A DNA stretch of 23,767 nt, from the IMG/VR virus record IMGVR_UViG_3300009537_000180, positions 1 to 23,767 of that record. One strand, 5' to 3'. The DNA is from a virus. Both the position numbers and the translations under genes were made by a program. The notes under the pieces are model-generated. The model made no database searches. It saw nothing but the letters and a program-made list of their open reading frames with translations, and was not told where the DNA came from. Of this stretch, positions 2,387 to 20,919 are shown piece after piece (position 1 is the stretch's first letter; each line of letters begins with the position of its first letter).

Positions 2387-2814
2387 CTGACAACACGAAC
2401 GAGCGCCATGAACCGAAAATGGTTTCGGATGAGCGTTTTGAAGAACTACTTAATCAAAAGAAGGACTTCAAAGATACGCAGGCTGCCTTTTCAGTTATCA
2501 AAAGAACATTTTTTACTGACAGCACGAACGAGCGGCGGGCGAAGGTTATTGCCCTACATACCGGCGGCTTTGAGCCAGAAAACCCGGACTTTGTTGTAGC
2601 GAAGGCTATCGGAGAGTCCGACGCCGAGGCGGGGATGGTGCTGGTTAAAGCGGCACATCTTATTAAAATGCGAGACGCACACCACGAAGGTGACCAGAAA
2701 GAGGTCTACTACTGGCTGTATGCGATTGCTTGCCGCGATGATTTTGGAACGCCGTCGGCTGAAGTGTGGCCCGTACTTGAGCGCATCGCCCGCGCAGACA
2801 AGGAGTTAGGGTGA
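2383..2814 (+). CDS. Hypothetical protein (143 aa)
   Basis: The start is the ATG at 2383 with a perfect AGGAGG at 2372-2377. An in-frame ATG at 2317 exists, but it lies inside the upstream gene and lacks such a site. The product is soluble, with an acidic Asn-rich start (MTDNTNERHEPKMVSDERF) and a predominantly helical body (AKAIGESDAEAGMVLVKAAH, YYWLYAIACRDDF). I do not recognise a domain. This is the last GC-rich gene on this side; composition changes abruptly after its stop. Confidence 0.7.
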   Translation: MTDNTNERHEPKMVSDERFEELLNQKKDFKDTQAAFSVIKRTFFTDSTNERRAKVIALHTGGFEPENPDFVVAKAIGESDAEAGMVLVKAAHLIKMRDAHHEGDQKEVYYWLYAIACRDDFGTPSAEVWPVLERIARADKELG

Positions 2815-3092
2815 GAAGATTTAAACGACAGCTATTTTTTTTATCGGTTTCTATTAGTATATTAATTTGTTCTATTCTTTTTTTCCCTTGGTTCCGTCCC
2901 CGTGAAACTGTTTGCGGTATTATGGGGAGATGGGAAACCAGAGAAAGGGGATGGAAACGGATATTTGGCCGCTTAGGAGCGGCCTTTTTTGATGCCACAA
3001 TACACAATGATAATGAAAAATGTCATGTTATTTATGAGATGGAAGAAGCCGCAAGAGGCCAACTTTATATAGTGAGTAGGGAACGTAGATGA
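2811..3092 (+). CDS. Small membrane-anchored phage protein (93 aa), GTG start
   Basis: The GTG at 2811 forms a GTGA overlap with the previous stop and follows AGGAG. Residues 7-27 are a hydrophobic anchor or signal (LFFLSVSISILICSILFFPWF). The rest is basic, with RETVCGIMGRW and a C-terminal CHVIYEMEEAARGQLY. From memory, phage mini-proteins with an 'ETVSGxxGRW ... HC...EE.AR..LY' pattern recur, so I think the frame is real even though a terminator-like hairpin lies inside it at 2968-2991. The 3' end overlaps the next ATG by 4 bases. The function is unknown. Confidence 0.6.
   Translation: MRRFKRQLFFLSVSISILICSILFFPWFRPRETVCGIMGRWETRERGWKRIFGRLGAAFFDATIHNDNEKCHVIYEMEEAARGQLYIVSRERR
2968..2991 (+). 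terminator. Terminator-like hairpin inside a coding region
   Basis: A perfect 6-bp GC-only stem (GGCCGC / GCGGCC) with a 6-base loop TTAGGA is followed immediately by six T residues, the classic intrinsic-terminator layout. It encodes GRLGAAFF within the 93-residue gene. It may terminate or attenuate transcription arriving from the GC-rich block, or be coincidental. Confidence 0.45.
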
Positions 3093-3382
3093 AGAAAACA
3101 AAACTTCCTAATTGCTGTGGAGCAAGTATTATTCACGCAATAAAAAGTATGACAGGAGAAGATTTTGAAGAAGAATTAGTAAACGTATTAGCAGATGAAC
3201 ACAACCCCGATAATAATTATGGGGAGTGGGAGGACGTTCTTATTATTATAATTGTTAATGACTATCAACAAGATTTTGCAGAATATTATCTTAAAAAATA
3301 TGGGTTTACAGAGGTTGAAGAAATTCCGGGGGTACATGGGGGGAGGATATATTTATGGATTAAGAAAATTATCTTAGATTAG
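3089..3382 (+). CDS. P-x-CCG family paralogue 1 (97 aa)
   Basis: First of three neighbouring related proteins. The N-terminus is MKKTKLPNCCGASIIHAI and the C-terminal half contains LIIIIVNDYQQDFAEYYLKK, GFTEVEEI and a hydrophobic strand (GGRIYLWI). The same order, P-x-C-C-G, then hydrophobic strand plus Asn and Gln, then helix, then G-F-x-E-V, then Gly-rich turn and strand, recurs in the genes at 3392 and 3825. The strand-helix-strand ending is reminiscent of GNAT-like folds, but no catalytic motif is visible. The ATG at 3089 overlaps the upstream stop. Confidence 0.75.
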   Translation: MKKTKLPNCCGASIIHAIKSMTGEDFEEELVNVLADEHNPDNNYGEWEDVLIIIIVNDYQQDFAEYYLKKYGFTEVEEIPGVHGGRIYLWIKKIILD

Positions 3383-3391
3383 GAGAAAAAT

Positions 3392-3688
3392 ATGAGACAC
3401 CAACAATATCCCTGCTGTTGTGGGGCACGAATTATTTACGATTTAGGAGGAACGTGGTGCACTCTCGGGGGCAACCTGAATGCGCTCCCTAAAGAAAAAT
3501 TTAATAGGGAAATTGAAAGGCTGAAAAAAGAATATTTTAAAGAAAATATGTTTCTCATTCTTATAAATGGCTCCCAAAAGAAGAGTTATAATCAAATGCT
3601 ACTGGATGCCGGATTTAAAGAGGTGAATAGGGTTGTAGGGGGGCATGGATATCTTTTACATCTTTATTGTTGGAATAGAGATGTATAA
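3392..3688 (+). CDS. P-x-CCG family paralogue 2 (98 aa)
   Basis: The ATG at 3392 follows TAGGAGAAAAAT. The start MRHQQYPCCCGARIIYDL and the later LILINGSQKKSYNQ, LLDAGFKEV and GGHGYLLHLY align with the flanking paralogues at 3089 and 3825. Three consecutive Cys (CCC) occur where the others have two. This is an unrecognised phage family. The conserved adjacent cysteines near the N-terminus suggest metal binding, a thiol-based role or a structural turn; I cannot choose between them. TAATG couples it to the next small gene. Confidence 0.75.
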   Translation: MRHQQYPCCCGARIIYDLGGTWCTLGGNLNALPKEKFNREIERLKKEYFKENMFLILINGSQKKSYNQMLLDAGFKEVNRVVGGHGYLLHLYCWNRDV

Positions 3689-3828
3689 TGCACACAATCA
3701 AAGAATTAGAAAAAACAATTATTCTTCTATCAAAAGATAAAGAAAAGAGAACAGACAAGGAAAGGCTTTTTGTTAAGAAAGTATTAAAAGAGATTTTAAT
3801 AGAAAGACTAAAAGAGAGAAAGAAATGA
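3688..3828 (+). CDS. Highly charged helical mini-protein (46 aa)
   Basis: The ATG at 3688 overlaps the upstream TAA and its own TGA overlaps the next ATG (ATGA at 3825), so it is held by two translational overlaps. The product begins MHTIKELEKTIILLSKDKEK and is almost half Lys, Arg and Glu, a continuous amphipathic helix. It sits between two members of the P-x-CCG family and may be a partner or a spacer gene. No family is recognised. Confidence 0.6.
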   Translation: MHTIKELEKTIILLSKDKEKRTDKERLFVKKVLKEILIERLKERKK

Positions 3829-4274
3829 AACACTTACAAGTGCCTTATTGTTGCGGATTAGATTTTCTATATGGCTTCTATGCCGATCACGGTAACGGAG
3901 ATAGTAGTATTAATAAGGGATCACAGGCAAGTCCTCCTTGGGCCGCCATCACTACAGAAGATGTTGAAAAATGGATAGTAGAAGAAATTGAAAATACTAT
4001 CAGAGTAGGTGTACGGAAATATGGCACCCAGCCTTTGTCCGTGGATCGCAGCATGCGCCCTTTAAAACTTTTAATTATTAATACCTCCCAAAAACAAAAA
4101 GGAATGGACAAGCTTCTAGAGAAACTAGGTTTTAACGAAATCTTCAAAACTAAAAATCCAAAAACCAGGGGCTGGCTTTATTTTTATTTTAAAGATGTAC
4201 AAGTAGATATACAGAAAAAAATAGAAGAAATAATTATGACAAGGAGAGCAAAGATGTTGAGACGGGCATTATGA
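3825..4274 (+). CDS. P-x-CCG family paralogue 3 (149 aa)
   Basis: Longest member of the tandem family. The N-terminus MKHLQVPYCCGLDFLYGF is followed by an insertion (about residues 22-85) absent from the other two, then LKLLIINTSQKQKGMDKLLE, KLGFNEI and GWLYFYF, which match the shared C-terminal block. A basic helical tail (IQKKIEEIIMTRRAKMLRRAL) extends past the common core. The stop overlaps the ATG of the gamma-glutamylcyclotransferase-like gene, so this family is physically coupled to the amide-ligase cluster. The function is unknown. Confidence 0.75.
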   Translation: MKHLQVPYCCGLDFLYGFYADHGNGDSSINKGSQASPPWAAITTEDVEKWIVEEIENTIRVGVRKYGTQPLSVDRSMRPLKLLIINTSQKQKGMDKLLEKLGFNEIFKTKNPKTRGWLYFYFKDVQVDIQKKIEEIIMTRRAKMLRRAL

Positions 4275-4660
4275 AAGTATTCGTATACGGGTCATTAAAA
4301 CAAGGATTTGGAAATCACGATGTTATGTCCCAAATAGGGGCAGTTTTTATAAGTACCGCTATTACAGAACATACAAGATTTGATTTAGTCACTTTAGGGC
4401 ACTTCCCGGGGCTAGTAACTGGTAAATATCAAGTTGAGGGAGAAGTATATGAAGTAGATGCAGATGCTCTCAGAACTCTCGACCACTTTGAAGGTTCTCC
4501 TACATTCTATAAAAGAAAAGAAATACCAGTGCTCCTGATAAAAGAAAAGGCATTAAAAGAAACATTCGCATATGTTTATATATTAAATCGGAAAGTTACC
4601 AATAAGATTGTTGAAACGTTTTCAGACTCTTTGAAAACCATCAAAAAATGGGTCGAGTAA
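4271..4660 (+). CDS. Gamma-glutamylcyclotransferase-like (AIG2/GGCT fold) protein
   Basis: The 129-residue product opens with VFVYGSLKQG (residues 3-12), the hallmark substrate-binding loop of the GGCT/AIG2 fold. It contains the expected acidic catalytic position in DHFEGSPTFYKR (Glu74), plus EGEVYEVD and a late Y-V-Y strand. Such enzymes release 5-oxoproline from gamma-glutamyl amines or trim gamma-glutamyl amides. Its length is typical. In this operon it probably edits or removes a gamma-glutamyl group made by the downstream ligases. Known: fold and reaction type of the family. Inferred: the substrate. It starts by ATGA overlap with the preceding gene. Confidence 0.88.
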   Translation: MKVFVYGSLKQGFGNHDVMSQIGAVFISTAITEHTRFDLVTLGHFPGLVTGKYQVEGEVYEVDADALRTLDHFEGSPTFYKRKEIPVLLIKEKALKETFAYVYILNRKVTNKIVETFSDSLKTIKKWVE

Positions 4661-5311: not shown

Positions 5312-6439
5312 ATGTGTGGGTTAGTTGGAGTTTTTGGTGATTTGGATGTTAAACTAGAAGAGGTATTTGAAGACCTCTTACAAATGGATGTAATACGCGG
5401 GTGGGAGTCAACGGGTGTTGCTGTTGTTCCTAGAGATGCTAAGAAAGTATCAATTATAAAGGATATCTATGTACCAATCTACATCATACAAGATGTAAAC
5501 TATATTCGAGCAAAAGCGGGGCAAAACCTTCTATTAATGGGGCATAATAGGGCAGCTACTTATGGTAAGGTAGAGAAACGAAATGCACACCCTTTTCAAA
5601 TAAAAAATATTACACTGTCGCATAATGGTACGCTTATCCCGGCTACCCCCCTTCCAAATTTAGATAAATTTGAAACCGACAGTGAAGCTATTACAGACTC
5701 AATTGCAAACATAGGTATAGAAGAAACATGGCCGCTCCTAAACGGTGCTGCTACTATTACTTTTTGGGATAATAAAGTAAAAACACTTAATATCGCCTCT
5801 AATGGTAAACGACCATTAAACTATGTATTCTTAAAAGATAATAAAGCTATCATGTGGGCATCAGAAGATTGGATGTTAGATGGGGTAATAAAACGACATA
5901 AATTAGAAGTTGAAAAGAGAAAGGATGAGGGATACTTATGGTATATTCGAACAAATACTGTTGGAATTTTCTCTTTTAAAAAAGAAAAAATAGTTTCAAA
6001 GTTTCCTCGTTTAAAAGAATATAAAAGTAGTTTTATTCAGGGTGGATTTAGGAACCAATACGATAATAATTATGGATTAAATGATGACGGTTGGTCAGAG
6101 GGATGGTATGAAATTACTAAAGAAGAAAAAGAAACGGATAATGTAGTGGACTTACAACAAAAATTTAAAGATAAGCGGAAACTTCTGGAAAAAGACGATA
6201 AAACTTTGAAGTTAAAAGCGATAGCTACAGATAAAGATGATCCAAATATTGCAAAAAATTTAATGTCTTTAATGGAATTTAGGTTGAGATACACAAATTG
6301 CGTTCTATGTAAAGAGTCTATTTTCGAAGAGTTTGAAACAGCAATCATCTTAGATAAGCATTCCGCTATTTGTAAGGCTTGTACAGGAATTGCGATAGCA
6401 AACAACATCCCCCTCACTGCAAACGGACTACTTGAATGA
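5312..6439 (+). CDS. Class II (Ntn-type) glutamine amidotransferase with C-terminal CxxC...CxxC module
   Basis: Met1 is followed by Cys2 in MCGLVGVFG, the autoprocessed N-terminal nucleophile of class II amidotransferases (GlmS, AsnB and PurF type). Supporting motifs are RGWESTGVAVV, GHNRAATYG, AHPF, LSHNGTL and TDSEAI, in family order across residues 30-130. These release ammonia from glutamine. No synthetase or isomerase domain follows. Instead, a Lys/Glu-rich linker leads to a C-terminal C-x2-C ... C-x2-C pair (Cys330, 333, 354, 357), a likely zinc ribbon. Ammonia or glutaminase activity would feed the adjacent amidoligases. ATG 5312 is fixed by the need for Cys2. The stop overlaps the next ATG. 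Confidence 0.9.
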   Translation: MCGLVGVFGDLDVKLEEVFEDLLQMDVIRGWESTGVAVVPRDAKKVSIIKDIYVPIYIIQDVNYIRAKAGQNLLLMGHNRAATYGKVEKRNAHPFQIKNITLSHNGTLIPATPLPNLDKFETDSEAITDSIANIGIEETWPLLNGAATITFWDNKVKTLNIASNGKRPLNYVFLKDNKAIMWASEDWMLDGVIKRHKLEVEKRKDEGYLWYIRTNTVGIFSFKKEKIVSKFPRLKEYKSSFIQGGFRNQYDNNYGLNDDGWSEGWYEITKEEKETDNVVDLQQKFKDKRKLLEKDDKTLKLKAIATDKDDPNIAKNLMSLMEFRLRYTNCVLCKESIFEEFETAIILDKHSAICKACTGIAIANNIPLTANGLLE

Positions 6440-7245
6440 CATTAAAAATTGGCGCTGATCCTGAACTATTCTTAAAGAAGAAAGGAGTTTTCTACTCCGG
6501 TTTTGGTGTTATACCAGGGTCTAAATCCCTCCCTTATCCAGTTAATAGGGGGGCGGTTCAGGTTGACGGTATGGCGGTAGAGTTTAATATTCTCCCTGCT
6601 GAAAATAGGGAAAGCTTTTCTGAAAATATTCAAGAAGTATTGAAAATATTAAGAAATATGGTACCAGTAGACTTCGATTTAGCAATAGAGTCGGTTGCTT
6701 ATTTTGAAAAAGAATATTTTAAAAGTCAACCGAGAGAGTGTAAACTTTTAGGGTGCAACCCCGACTATAATGCCTATACAGAGGAAATGAATATCCCCCC
6801 AAACCCAAGAAAACCAATAAGAACAGCAGCGGGGCATATTCACTTAGGGTGGGGAGAAGGAATTGAACCTAACAGGGGCCATTTCAATAGGTGTTTTACG
6901 CTTACCAAGCAATTAGATTTTTTATTAGGTATTCCTAGTGTGGTGCTGGACAGGGGAGAAGAACGTCGGAAGATGTATGGACAAGCAGGCTGTTTCCGCC
7001 CAAAACAATATGGTATGGAGTATCGTGTTCTTAGTAATTTTTGGTTAAAAGACACCAAACTAATTGAGTGGGTATTTGACCAAGCTAAACGAGCATTTGA
7101 ACTTCTTACAGAAGAGGGAGTTAATCTACATAAAGAACTTGGAGATGTTGCAAGAGATATTATAAATAAAAATAATAAAGAAGGAGCAGCTAATCTTTTG
7201 CAAAAGGAACTAAAGGGGTACGTGAATATTGAGGCACTTACATGA
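6436..7245 (+). CDS. phiEco32-type COOH-NH2 ligase (amidoligase, glutamine-synthetase-like fold)
   Basis: The 269-residue product carries the motif set of the phage COOH-NH2 ligase type 2 family: GADPELFL (5-12), VQVDGMAVEFNILPAE (about 41-56), AAGHIHLGWG (about 132-141) and a long basic signature with MYGQAGCFRPKQYGMEYR and LSNFWL (about 180-203). The conserved acidic residues and His would bind metal and ATP as in glutamine synthetase. The reaction is ATP-dependent joining of a carboxylate to an amine. The family was predicted by comparative genomics (Iyer, Aravind and colleagues) to act in peptide or protein modification together with ATP-grasp, GAT-II and GGCT enzymes, which is the neighbourhood seen here. 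ATGA overlaps occur on both sides. Confidence 0.88.
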   Translation: MTLKIGADPELFLKKKGVFYSGFGVIPGSKSLPYPVNRGAVQVDGMAVEFNILPAENRESFSENIQEVLKILRNMVPVDFDLAIESVAYFEKEYFKSQPRECKLLGCNPDYNAYTEEMNIPPNPRKPIRTAAGHIHLGWGEGIEPNRGHFNRCFTLTKQLDFLLGIPSVVLDRGEERRKMYGQAGCFRPKQYGMEYRVLSNFWLKDTKLIEWVFDQAKRAFELLTEEGVNLHKELGDVARDIINKNNKEGAANLLQKELKGYVNIEALT

Positions 7246-7892
7246 AAAATTCAACAAATAATGAACGATTTTACGACTTAAATCATGCAGATATGTATCT
7301 AAGACATACAGTAATTAGGGTGGAGAGTATTCCTGCCTATATTACAGCAATTGGGGGGAGTAAAAAAGCAGGCTTTTCTATCGAATATGTTGAGCTGGGG
7401 GATATACACAATAAATTAATTACCGCTTTAGGACTAAAAACGGTAGACCTTAGCCCCCTTCCATTAGGTATGATGAACTACTTTCCAGGAAAGGGTAACT
7501 TACGAACAGTAATTATAAGCCGTATACCCGTAAGGCGATGGAAAGTGGGGTTAGACACAAGAAATATGTTAATCTCAAGTATTGCGGGAGATCGCCATTC
7601 TATATTCCTTGAGCCCGGCCAAGTTATCCTATCCGCAGATTTAAAAAATACAATTATGGGAAAATTTCCAACATATAAAGAAGCAATTAATAGCTTAGAG
7701 AGCAGCTCTGCATATAGCTCTGTTGCTTTTAACCGGCATTTCGCTATAAAAACGAGAGGAAAGGGTAAGAATGAACTTATCTATTATAAATTTGATACAC
7801 CAATAGGAATATGCGGGCCAACTAAACCACTACTTTCTCCCGAATTTATGTTTTTAAAAGAACATCTTGATGAGGTACTGAAACATGAATGA
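7242..7892 (+). CDS. Conserved-looking unknown protein embedded in amidoligase cluster (216 aa)
   Basis: The ATG at 7242 overlaps the upstream stop and the gene ends 8 bases inside the next one, so it is tightly coupled within the ligase operon. Visible features are an N-terminal NHADMYLRHTVIRVESIPAY, then LSPLPLGMMNYFPGKGNLRT, the basic motif SRIPVRRWKVGLDTRNM, and a Ser-rich stretch (SLESSSAYSSVAFNRHFAIK). The 'LG.(M)N ... R.P.R.WK.GL...N' pattern is, from memory, shared with other phage hypotheticals near ATP-grasp genes, but I cannot name a domain. It may be the modification substrate, a specificity subunit or an unrecognised enzyme. No catalytic motif is clear. Confidence 0.8.
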   Translation: MKNSTNNERFYDLNHADMYLRHTVIRVESIPAYITAIGGSKKAGFSIEYVELGDIHNKLITALGLKTVDLSPLPLGMMNYFPGKGNLRTVIISRIPVRRWKVGLDTRNMLISSIAGDRHSIFLEPGQVILSADLKNTIMGKFPTYKEAINSLESSSAYSSVAFNRHFAIKTRGKGKNELIYYKFDTPIGICGPTKPLLSPEFMFLKEHLDEVLKHE

Positions 7893-8958
7893 TGATAAGA
7901 ATATCTACCCCACTATCAGAGAGCTTATTGGGGGCAGGAAAAAATTTAAAAAGGGGCAAGATATAGGGATAGAAATTGAAATCGAGGGGCGGAGAATATG
8001 GGACACATGGCCCGGTAATAATACTTGGCATATTGTTGAAGATGGGTCATTAAGGGGGGAAGAGGCCGCAGAATATATTCTTGCCCACCCAATCCATATT
8101 GATGAAATACCTGAAGCTCTAGAAGAACTAGAAGAGCTTCTTGAACCCGTAAAAATCGAACTAAGCGACCGCTGTGGGGTGCATATACATATCAATATAC
8201 AAGATATAACATTTAAAGAGTTGTTTAATTTTGCATTCTTATACTTAGTTATGGAAGATGTCCTTGTTAGTTATTGCGGGGCAAGCAGGGAAGGAAACCT
8301 ATTCTGCCTTAAAGCAAAAGATGCAGAATACCTAATAGACAAACTCATAGAAACTAAAAAAGAAAATGAATTGGGGCCCTTAAAAAATCAAGAAGAGAAT
8401 ATTCGTTATGCCGCTATCAACTTTGCATCCATATTTAAACATGGTTCTCTAGAATTTAGAGCATTAAAAACTCCAAAAGATTTTTCAGAGATTAATACTT
8501 GGGCTCGGATGCTCTGGCAGGTAAAAGAAGCCTCTGGTAAATACAACACCCCTATAGAGATAATTGAGGATTGTTCTTTACTTGGGATGCGTGGGTTTAT
8601 TATCAAAGTTATGGGAGACTTCACAAAAACTTTGGTAAGAAATGTACCAGAAATAGAAAATAAAATTAGAACAGGCATACGTTTAATGCAAGATGTAGCT
8701 TACACAAAATCTATTAAACGTCCTGTAATTAAAAGTGATTTAGTAAAACCAAAAAAAGTGTATAAGCCTGGCGCGGTCATAGTAGAAGATAATATATTCC
8801 TAGAAGAGCCCGAAGCCCCAGAAGCCGACGAAGCTGTGTTTCAAGAACCCGTAGAAGGGGAACAGATTAGAGGTGGTCATAGGGTTAACATCATGCGAGG
8901 ATACCAGGCGGCCCTATACCGCGACCGCGAACTAAGAGCCATAGCCGAAGAAGAGTAA
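7885..8958 (+). CDS. Amidoligase_2-family protein (357 aa)
   Basis: Motifs in order: DIGIEIEIEGRRIW (about 25-38), VEDGSLRG (about 50-57), CGVHIHINI (about 98-106), EDVLVSYCG then REGNLFCL (about 125-145), and YAAINFASIFKHGSLEFRAL (about 175-194). This matches the amidoligase family related to glutamine synthetase, where 'E.E.E', 'D.S', 'G.H.H' and 'EFR' supply metal and ATP ligands. It is a second, distinct ligase beside the COOH-NH2 ligase at 6436. The C-terminal 100 residues are acidic and Pro-rich (EEPEAPEADEAVFQEP), probably a flexible tail. TAATG couples it to the ATP-grasp gene. Confidence 0.88.
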   Translation: MNDDKNIYPTIRELIGGRKKFKKGQDIGIEIEIEGRRIWDTWPGNNTWHIVEDGSLRGEEAAEYILAHPIHIDEIPEALEELEELLEPVKIELSDRCGVHIHINIQDITFKELFNFAFLYLVMEDVLVSYCGASREGNLFCLKAKDAEYLIDKLIETKKENELGPLKNQEENIRYAAINFASIFKHGSLEFRALKTPKDFSEINTWARMLWQVKEASGKYNTPIEIIEDCSLLGMRGFIIKVMGDFTKTLVRNVPEIENKIRTGIRLMQDVAYTKSIKRPVIKSDLVKPKKVYKPGAVIVEDNIFLEEPEAPEADEAVFQEPVEGEQIRGGHRVNIMRGYQAALYRDRELRAIAEEE

Positions 8959-9686
8959 TGTTATATTTATATTCTTATATGGGGGGGTCAAACGGGGCAA
9001 AAGAAGTGGCTAAAAAATTAAAAGTTAATCGTATTAAACATAAAAATAGTAGCTTTAAAGGAGGCAGGAATAAGATAGTAATAAACTGGGGGGCCACTGA
9101 AGTCCCAAAAGAAGTGGGCAAGTGCACAATAATCAACACCCCTGAAGCTGTTAAAGAGGTGAGTAATAAACTATTATTCTTTGAAAAATTAAACGGTAAG
9201 AAACTCACCCCCACCTATACAAGAGATGCGAGGGTGGCGGAAGAGTGGTTAAAGGGGGGCTATCATGTACTATGCCGTACCCTCTTACGTGCTAGTGGGG
9301 GGCGGGGGATTGTTTTAGATAAGATAGTAGAAGCGAAATTATATGTACGCTATATAGCTAAAAAAGAAGAATATCGGGTACATATTTTCAGGGGGCAGGT
9401 CATTGATGTTCAAAGAAAAGCACGAAAGCTTGATGAAGAACAACCTAACTGGAAAATTAGAAACTTAGAAGGGGGGTTTGTTTATGTCAGAGAAGGGTTT
9501 AATATCCCTGAATGTGTTATTGATGTAGCTAAGAAAACATTTAAACATTTTAATTTAGACTTTGGGGCTATAGATATAATTTATACAGCCAATAAAAATA
9601 GGGCTTTCGCCCTTGAGATTAATACTGCCCCAGGTTTAGAGGGGCAAACAGTTGAGAGTTATGTAACAGCTTTTAAGGCGTTATAA
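8958..9686 (+). CDS. ATP-grasp family carboxylate-amine ligase (242 aa)
   Basis: The product ends in an ATP-grasp core: substrate or ATP-lid residues in NKLLFFEKLN, VLCRTLLRASGGRGIVL (Gly-rich loop, about 109-125), EEYRVHIFRGQVIDVQRKAR (about 136-156), FGAIDIIY and the metal-binding ALEINTAPGLEG (about 222-232). These enzymes activate a carboxylate as acyl-phosphate for attack by an amine. The N-terminus MLYLYSYMGGSNGAKEVAKK with NWGATEVP resembles the short pre-ATP-grasp domain seen in phage versions. It is the last gene of the cluster. Its DNA contains long G runs (7 G at 8981, and 6 G plus 5 G at 9297-9308). Confidence 0.88.
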   Translation: MLYLYSYMGGSNGAKEVAKKLKVNRIKHKNSSFKGGRNKIVINWGATEVPKEVGKCTIINTPEAVKEVSNKLLFFEKLNGKKLTPTYTRDARVAEEWLKGGYHVLCRTLLRASGGRGIVLDKIVEAKLYVRYIAKKEEYRVHIFRGQVIDVQRKARKLDEEQPNWKIRNLEGGFVYVREGFNIPECVIDVAKKTFKHFNLDFGAIDIIYTANKNRAFALEINTAPGLEGQTVESYVTAFKAL

Positions 9687-19599: not shown

Positions 19600-20036
19600 A
19601 AACAATCTATCTCATTGGTTCTCTTAGGAACCCGTTTGTTCCTACTTTAGCGAATAAACTACGAGAAGAAGGATATGAAGTATTTGATGACTGGTATGCT
19701 CCTGGCCCGGAAGCTGATGACTATTGGAAAGAATATTCACAACAGCGGGGGCAGACTTATAAAGAGGCTCTCAATTCTTGGAGCGGAAAACATATATTTG
19801 AGTTCGATAAGCATCATCTTGATCGTGCCGGTATTGGTGTACTTGTTCACCCTGCTGGTAAGAGCGGTCATCTTGAACTAGGATACCTGATAGGACAGGA
19901 GAAGCCGGGAATTATTTTTTGGCCAGAAGGTGAACCCCCGCAAGATAGGTGGGATGTTATGGTTCAGTTTGCTCAGACCGCTTTCTCATACGAAGAACTT
20001 GTAAAAGAATTAAAGGGGATTGCTTTTGTACCGTAA
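19596..20036 (+). CDS. Nucleoside 2-deoxyribosyltransferase-like protein (146 aa)
   Basis: The ATG at 19596 overlaps the membrane-protein stop and follows GGGGGGAAG; the frame is open further upstream to 19548, but that start is inside the previous gene. Motifs are IYLIGSLRN (4-12), YEVFDDWY (27-34), a VLVHP strand and AGKSGHLELGYLIG with catalytic-type Glu94. This matches the nucleoside 2-deoxyribosyltransferase superfamily, which cleaves or exchanges the N-glycosidic bond of (deoxy)nucleosides. Phage members may serve nucleotide salvage or NAD-like metabolite turnover. It is followed by GMP reductase, so purine metabolism is the most economical context. Confidence 0.82.
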   Translation: MKTIYLIGSLRNPFVPTLANKLREEGYEVFDDWYAPGPEADDYWKEYSQQRGQTYKEALNSWSGKHIFEFDKHHLDRAGIGVLVHPAGKSGHLELGYLIGQEKPGIIFWPEGEPPQDRWDVMVQFAQTAFSYEELVKELKGIAFVP

Positions 20037-20919
20037 ACTCGATTTCGATGATGTATTAATTGTTCCCCGATCCTCCACTGTTACATCTAGAGCTGATGTG
20101 GTGTTAGAGAAAACCTTTACTATTGGCCCCGATGAAACAACTCTAAGGTGTGTCCCTATTATCGCAGCGAATATGCAAAACATTGGTACTGTTTCAGTAG
20201 CTAGTATTTTACATAAATATGAGATGTTAACCGCCTTAGTTAAAAATACCCTTAATACCCTACCTACCACCTTCCCTGCTTTTAACACATACGGTATGGA
20301 AGGGGAGGTGGAAGATTTACAGTTTATATGTTTAGATGTTGCAAATGGCTATTTATCTTCTTTTGTGGAGCGGGTAAAACAAGTTAGAGAGAAATACCCA
20401 TTTTCTGTTATTATGGCAGGAAATGTAGTGACGACGGAAGGAGTAGAAAACCTTGCTAAAGCAGGCGCAGACATTATTAAAGTCGGCTTGGGTAGCGGGA
20501 GCGCGTGCACTACAAGAATTAAAACAGGAGTTGGTTACCCCCAGCTATCAGCAGTTCTTGAGTGTTCCGCTGCTACAAGGCATCATGGCGTTTATCTATG
20601 TTCTGATGGTGGGCATAGGAACCCTGGTGATATCGCTAAGTCTTTTGCTGCTGGCGCTGATTTTGTTATGCTTGGAGGGATGCTATCTGGCACTGATGAA
20701 ACTGGTGCAGTTTTCTACGGAAACGCTTCAAGGATGGCGCAGGGGACATTAGAAAAATACCGCGCAGAAGAGGGGCAAGTTATAGAAACCCCTTATAAAG
20801 GTAGCTTGGATGATGTGGTTCAAGATATTCTAGGAGGCCTTCGCTCGGCTTGCACCTATGTTGGGGCTAGAAACCTAGACGAGTTTAAACAGTTTTCGAG
20901 AATAATTCAGGTGAAATAA
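20026..20919 (+). CDS. guaC: GMP reductase (IMPDH/GuaC family), 297 aa, TTG start
   Basis: The start chosen is TTG 20026 (MYRKLDFDDVLIVPRSS) because AAAGGGGA lies 6 bases upstream; TTG 20020 is in frame but abuts that site. Diagnostic stretches are VPIIAANM, CLDVANGY, AGNVVTTEGVENLAKAGADI, GSGSACTTRIKTGVGYPQLS with nucleophile Cys161, SDGGHRNPGDIAKSFAAGAD, FVMLGGMLSG and GGLRSACTYVGA. These follow the order of E. coli GuaC, which I recall as about 347 residues, so this copy is some 50 residues shorter, with trimmed loops and C-terminus. It converts GMP to IMP and ammonia with NADPH. Finding it in a phage, beside a deoxyribosyltransferase-like gene, suggests purine-pool rebalancing. Confidence 0.92.
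   Translation: MYRKLDFDDVLIVPRSSTVTSRADVVLEKTFTIGPDETTLRCVPIIAANMQNIGTVSVASILHKYEMLTALVKNTLNTLPTTFPAFNTYGMEGEVEDLQFICLDVANGYLSSFVERVKQVREKYPFSVIMAGNVVTTEGVENLAKAGADIIKVGLGSGSACTTRIKTGVGYPQLSAVLECSAATRHHGVYLCSDGGHRNPGDIAKSFAAGADFVMLGGMLSGTDETGAVFYGNASRMAQGTLEKYRAEEGQVIETPYKGSLDDVVQDILGGLRSACTYVGARNLDEFKQFSRIIQVK

Follow-up and report, generated by a model that had tools for sequence, protein, structure and literature searches.

What do three small neighboring genes, whose products all begin with a P-x-C-C-G motif, do at the head of a phage amidoligase cassette? The genes, which encode the PxCCG proteins p1, p2, and p3, lie on an IMG/VR virus fragment of 23.8 kb (23,767 nt; the whole stretch is referred to as the window), and the cassette genes that they head are tightly packed (Table 1). 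As initially annotated, p3 is joined to the GGCT gene by an ATGA overlap at 4271-4274. The gap between p2 and p3 is 136 nt and contains a small lysine-rich ORF. The class-I amidotransferase carries its Cys (GICRG) and His-x-Glu (HPE) in the sequence. A pattern scan of the region found 7 terminator-like patterns against 2.4 expected. The hairpin upstream of p1, a pattern match of this kind, may mark the upstream edge of a transcription unit that p1 opens. It falls within a predicted 93-aa ORF (2811-3092), and this ORF may not be a real gene because a strong terminator-like hairpin lies inside it.

Table 1. Features at the head of the amidoligase cassette (all on the + strand; positions are those of the window).
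Feature	Position	Strand	Length	Basis and remarks
Intrinsic-terminator-like hairpin and T run	2967..2984	+		Pattern scan; about 100-105 nt upstream of p1
PxCCG protein 1 (p1)	3089..3382	+	97 aa	ORF; family profile A1 match E 4e-23 (p1 is a row of A1)
P-N-C-C-G motif of p1	3107..3121	+		Sequence, alignment
N-D-Y-Q block of p1 (Gln family-invariant)	3257..3268	+		Alignment
PxCCG protein 2 (p2)	3392..3688	+	98 aa	ORF; PHROG 8299 E 1.2e-3; half-GNAT-like model
P-C-C-C-G motif of p2	3410..3424	+		Sequence, alignment
N-G-S-Q block of p2	3566..3577	+		Alignment
Lysine-rich ORF between p2 and p3	3688..3828	+	45 aa	Overlaps p2 (TAATG) and p3 (ATGA); sequence, translation
PxCCG protein 3 (p3)	3825..4274	+	149 aa	ORF; inserts and C-terminal tail; A1 match E 1.9e-9 (p3 is not a row of A1)
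P-Y-C-C-G motif of p3	3843..3857	+		Sequence, alignment
N-T-S-Q block of p3	4080..4091	+		Alignment
Gamma-glutamyl cyclotransferase-like (GGACT; GGCT)	4271..4660	+		Pfam PF06094 E 3e-23; phrog_2520
Class-I glutamine amidotransferase / peptidase C26	4662..5300	+		PF07722 E 8.5e-21; phrog_7218
Class-II glutamine amidotransferase, N-terminal Cys2	5312..6439	+		PF13522; phrog_4736
COOH-NH2 ligase type 2 (phiEco32-like)	6436..7245	+		PF14395 E 1e-8; phrog_3815 E 2e-80
Cassette protein phrog_11055	7242..7892	+		phrog_11055 match
Amidoligase_2	7885..8958	+		PF12224 E 2e-12; phrog_7469
ATP-grasp ligase (S6 glutaminyl transferase-like; weak R2K_2)	8958..9686	+		phrog_2599 E 5e-70; PF18299 E 0.028

Elsewhere in the window, a 15-bp tandem repeat at 1-241 (N-L-S-G-A) encodes a pentapeptide-repeat protein that continues beyond the left edge, and a dehydrogenase (phrog_9582), possibly IMPDH/GMP-reductase-like, lies at 20020-20919 in the phage replication region. 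In the cassette itself, the phrog_11055 gene is located between the two ligases, and most of the cassettes compared have a similarly sized gene (about 180-220 aa) in the equivalent position. Its product qualifies better than the PxCC proteins as a candidate core component.

The relationship among the three proteins was investigated by alignment. The P-x-C-C-G motif occupies residues 7-11 in each of them. The second block of the initial annotation was also found in all three: the N-x-x-Q block is followed on its C-terminal side by GFTEV in p1, GFKEV in p2, and GFNEI in p3. Compared with 2000 shuffles, the alignment scores gave z = 13.0 for p1/p2 and 6.4 for p2/p3, which no shuffle reached, and 5.5 for p1/p3, which two shuffles reached. 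When the first 11 residues were cut off, z was 7.3 (p1/p2), 3.8 (p2/p3), and 3.3 (p1/p3). These results confirm, at the level of sequence, that p1, p2, and p3 are homologous and thus paralogues, as had been proposed. Two details of the proposal changed. Instead of a single 60-residue insertion, p3 has 52 extra residues distributed over an insert after the motif, an insert before the strand, and a C-terminal tail. The duplication had also been called recent. However, p2 shares only 25-29% protein identity with p1 and p3, blastn among the three genes gave nothing more than short chance words at the DNA level, and in the tree a single-copy relative from another phage (L016) clustered with the three proteins (support 0.86) and was nested within them, weakly (0.70). 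These results do not support a recent duplication, and by sequence the three genes appear to be old, diverged paralogues.

We then examined the family to which these proteins belong. PHROG 8299, which includes LUZ24 gp12, was matched by p2 and by 8 of the 10 members of alignment A1, and p1 and p3 are tied to it only via the wider profile A1. Members were found in four oyster Zobellviridae phages (PQ867852, PQ867842, PQ867841, and PQ867840), in LUZ24, NV1, tf, UFV-P2, Rembedalsseter, and other LUZ24-like phages, in Poriferisphaera phage ZRK32, and on the IMG/VR contigs L020 and L042. The second Cys of the motif, the Gln of N/T-x-x-Q, and the Gly of LG(F/W) were present in all 15 aligned members including p1-p3, and the Pro was present in 14. 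A His near the last hairpin was counted in 12/15 by a loose regular expression, the counted His being a last-strand residue in some members; it is absent from p3, L014, and L016. The combined motif [CV]C[TGS]...[NT]xxQ...G[FWS] was found in 20 of the 6,495 ORFs of at least 60 residues from all loci compared, and all 20 were family members including p1-p3; as the motif was tuned on the family, this shows its specificity and not an independent discovery. More than one copy was found only in the window among the 35 records scanned.

The suggestion that this is a phage-specific family holds in that every relative known so far comes from a phage. When IMG/VR was searched with window proteins as single-sequence queries, no matches were obtained. 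One Rembedalsseter query against 84,980 species genomes, a search that sees close relatives only, found no cellular homologues, and PADLOC detected no known defence family. Our literature search found no paper on a role of the family in the amidoligase pathway. The passages on UFV-P2 (PMC3890496), tf (PMC3517423), TC6 (PMC6209634), and ZRK32 (PMC10945688) report ligases or amidotransferases and do not describe the family protein. The Pae-1 orthologue of LUZ24 gp12 was deposited as an N-acetyltransferase, a name given without a stated basis.

Two AlphaFold2 models were built from nine-sequence alignments of window and IMG/VR proteins, one for an NV1-type member (pLDDT 70.6, pTM 0.67) and one for p2 (pLDDT 70.5, pTM 0.63). 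Both models show strand-helix-strand-helix-strand-strand. Unrelated structures had been named as the result that would speak against the family; for p2, the only window protein modeled, the topology agrees with that of the NV1 homologue. In Foldseek and VIA-align comparisons, GNAT acetyltransferases ranked for both models and were aligned over the GNAT C-terminal half. For the NV1 model, nearly all top PDB matches were GNATs (chain residues about 65-170), and the N-terminal domain of human NUDT6 gave Z 9.1. The p2 model matched AtNUDT7 (Z 7.5) and GNATs, with methyltransferases also among the matches. Structural Z values of 7-9 are close to what a common arrangement would give. Independent BFVD models of UFV-P2, tf, and LUZ24 gp12 superposed on the NV1 model with E down to 9e-17; since these are models of homologues, this indicates reproducibility rather than fold identity with GNATs. 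UFV-P2, tf, and LUZ24, together with four other entries, were the top seven matches (E < 1e-3) in a viral structure library.

Profile alignment pointed in the same direction. Aligned to 30 GNATs taken from three genomes, the family profile scored 16.4 compared with 6.9 +/- 1.1 for 150 column shuffles, none of which reached this score, at low probability, and the alignment kept the expected helix-strand-helix-LGF register. A methyltransferase control profile did not rise above its shuffles. A response-regulator control did so at 13.7, over 16 columns only, and its reversed profile scored equally high (15.8). Part of the GNAT signal is generic, because column shuffling destroys helix periodicity. 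Weak matches to FR47 and Acetyltransf_18 were obtained with the consensus only (E 0.2), and sequence searches found no GNAT or other enzyme family at a significant E-value. Taken together, the moderate-confidence models and the weak profile evidence suggest that the family probably has a half-GNAT fold. The GNAT N-terminal half is absent from the family proteins, alignment A6 showed no R/Q-x-x-G-x-G/A CoA pyrophosphate loop before the first helix, and the usual catalytic Tyr was not seen. The GNAT resemblance thus predicts no chemistry, and a role for CoA is unlikely given the missing loop. Among other candidates, a riboflavin-kinase-like profile match (P..C..xVVxGFGRGS, E 0.2) was put down to chance because the model does not form a barrel, Pfam matches to DUF6829, Imm30, GIIM, AA_kinase, and helicase Q1 were at chance level, and a papain/C39-like reading of the CCG motif was dropped after modeling.

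How might such a protein act? Homology, motif invariance, and cassette linkage are observed here, and our preferred reading, held tentatively, is that these are accessory proteins of the amidoligase pathway in which the invariant Cys is the working residue. Each protein would be a stand-alone domain with the shape of a GNAT C-terminal half (strand, helix, strand, helix, hairpin; with inserts in p3) that has lost, or never had, the CoA-binding loop, and p1-p3 would most likely serve the cassette as accessory subunits. The half-domain would form a substrate cleft, probably by dimerizing or by docking on an enzyme of the cassette. The invariant Cys would be placed where the first strand begins, close to the conserved Gln and, in most members, to a His of the last hairpin. 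By analogy with GNATs, the start of this strand and the last hairpin would both be on the acceptor side, so that the Cys, the Gln, and, where present, the His could come together there. The Cys may take or hold an aminoacyl or amide group from the amidotransferase-ligase enzymes and pass it to an acceptor, and the three copies would then provide three acceptor specificities. Of this scheme, we infer the dimerization, the thiol step, and the nature of the substrate.

Almost as likely is that the proteins are non-catalytic adaptors. As pseudo-acetyltransferase half-domains, they would bind to a target in the host or to one of the cassette enzymes and guide the ligases to it, and the Cys, Gln, and Gly would have structural or binding roles. 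The missing CoA loop, the small size, and the presence of only one identifiable invariant candidate for a catalytic residue favor such adaptors, and fast divergence and triplication suit a diversification of binding. The half-GNAT N-domains of NUDT6 and AtNUDT7 are likewise joined to another enzyme and do not act alone. However, in fast-evolving proteins a Cys that is invariant, often doubled, and fixed in position close to an invariant Gln would be an uncommon finding if its role were purely structural. We prefer a working Cys to an inert adaptor.

The proposed link to the ligase pathway gained support from other phages, in which relatives were found in or near the same amidoligase cassette. 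The neighborhood of amidotransferases, ligases, and ATP-grasp genes around the family gene is conserved across phages. In L003, L005, L014, L020, and L042, the family gene lies directly behind the class-I amidotransferase, and the class-II amidotransferase gene is next where the contig goes on. In L016 it lies just in front of the class-I gene, and in the window three copies are in front of the GGCT and class-I genes. In most of L003-L044, the class-I amidotransferase is preceded by a conserved protein at least about 300 aa long (more than 30 matching ORFs); nothing in the window matches it, and its place there is taken by the three PxCCG genes and GGCT. A COOH-NH2 ligase, the cassette marker, was found in more than 300 phage records. 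It is in the same genome as the family gene in LUZ24, tf, UFV-P2, NV1, Rembedalsseter, and ZRK32. Most cassette-bearing Zobellviridae have no family gene, so the gene is not essential to the pathway. These results indicate that the family gene is an optional companion of the cassette and its set of peptide-bond-making enzymes.

The same survey bears on whether the proteins are ordinary early host-takeover proteins that lie beside the cassette by chance. The arrangement in LUZ24-like phages would suit this, as the family gene is one of many small genes of the early region there, with the ligases several kb further downstream. However, several phages that are quite diverged have the gene within the cassette or immediately next to it, and every family-bearing phage with enough sequence has the ligase cassette. 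A chance neighborhood is unlikely.

The PxCCG proteins could also be the protein substrates of the cassette, receiving amino acids or amide groups from the ligases. Modification of host proteins by R2K.2 ATP-grasp enzymes has been proposed, and cassette reactions are predicted to modify proteins in the literature on R2K and amidoligases (PMC4431377); cell-wall modification by phiEco32 amidoligases has been described in a passage citing Iyer et al. 2009 (PMC10580990). Close linkage, small size, and variable C-termini would be in keeping with substrates. However, the C-termini are neither conserved nor similar in composition and the conservation lies in an internal folded core, so we consider substrates very unlikely. 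A small metal-binding Cys-Cys protein is extremely improbable: most members have two or three adjacent Cys, but the first Cys is replaced by Val in tf (L029) and L014 (Val-Cys), which argues against the cysteine metal site raised in the initial annotation, and there is no second conserved Cys or His pair.

Accessory proteins with a working Cys remain our preferred reading. A further step would be a CoA-independent, thiol-based class of minimal half-GNAT transferases in which the invariant Cys bears an acyl or aminoacyl group produced by the cassette, with three versions in this phage for different acceptors; we regard such a class as quite unlikely. Because the family protein goes with the cassette, offers a single invariant candidate for a working residue, and is encoded by cultured Pseudomonas phages (LUZ24 gp12), it provides a simple handle and a testable lead to what this widespread gene set does.

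Among known systems, the GNATs (RimJ, SpeG, MnaT/YncA, and others) share with the family the topology of their C-terminal half (beta4 to beta7) and the helix-strand-helix-LGF register, whereas the family is without the N-terminal half, the CoA loop, and a significant sequence match. The N-terminal domain of human NUDT6 and AtNUDT7 is of similar length and was the best or near-best match of both models. In those proteins, however, the half-GNAT is fused to a Nudix hydrolase, whereas the family protein is a separate gene product with no detected sequence similarity to them. Closest are PHROG 8299 and LUZ24 gp12, which share with the window proteins the N-terminal P-x-(C/V)-C, N/T-x-x-Q, LG(F/W), their size, and host phages with an amidoligase cassette. 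The window proteins differ from them in having CCG where most others have CCT, in missing the 20-residue GFGxS...D loop wholly or partly, and in standing at the cassette head in three copies. The family was already known but unexplained; what is new here is its triplication and the CCG subtype.
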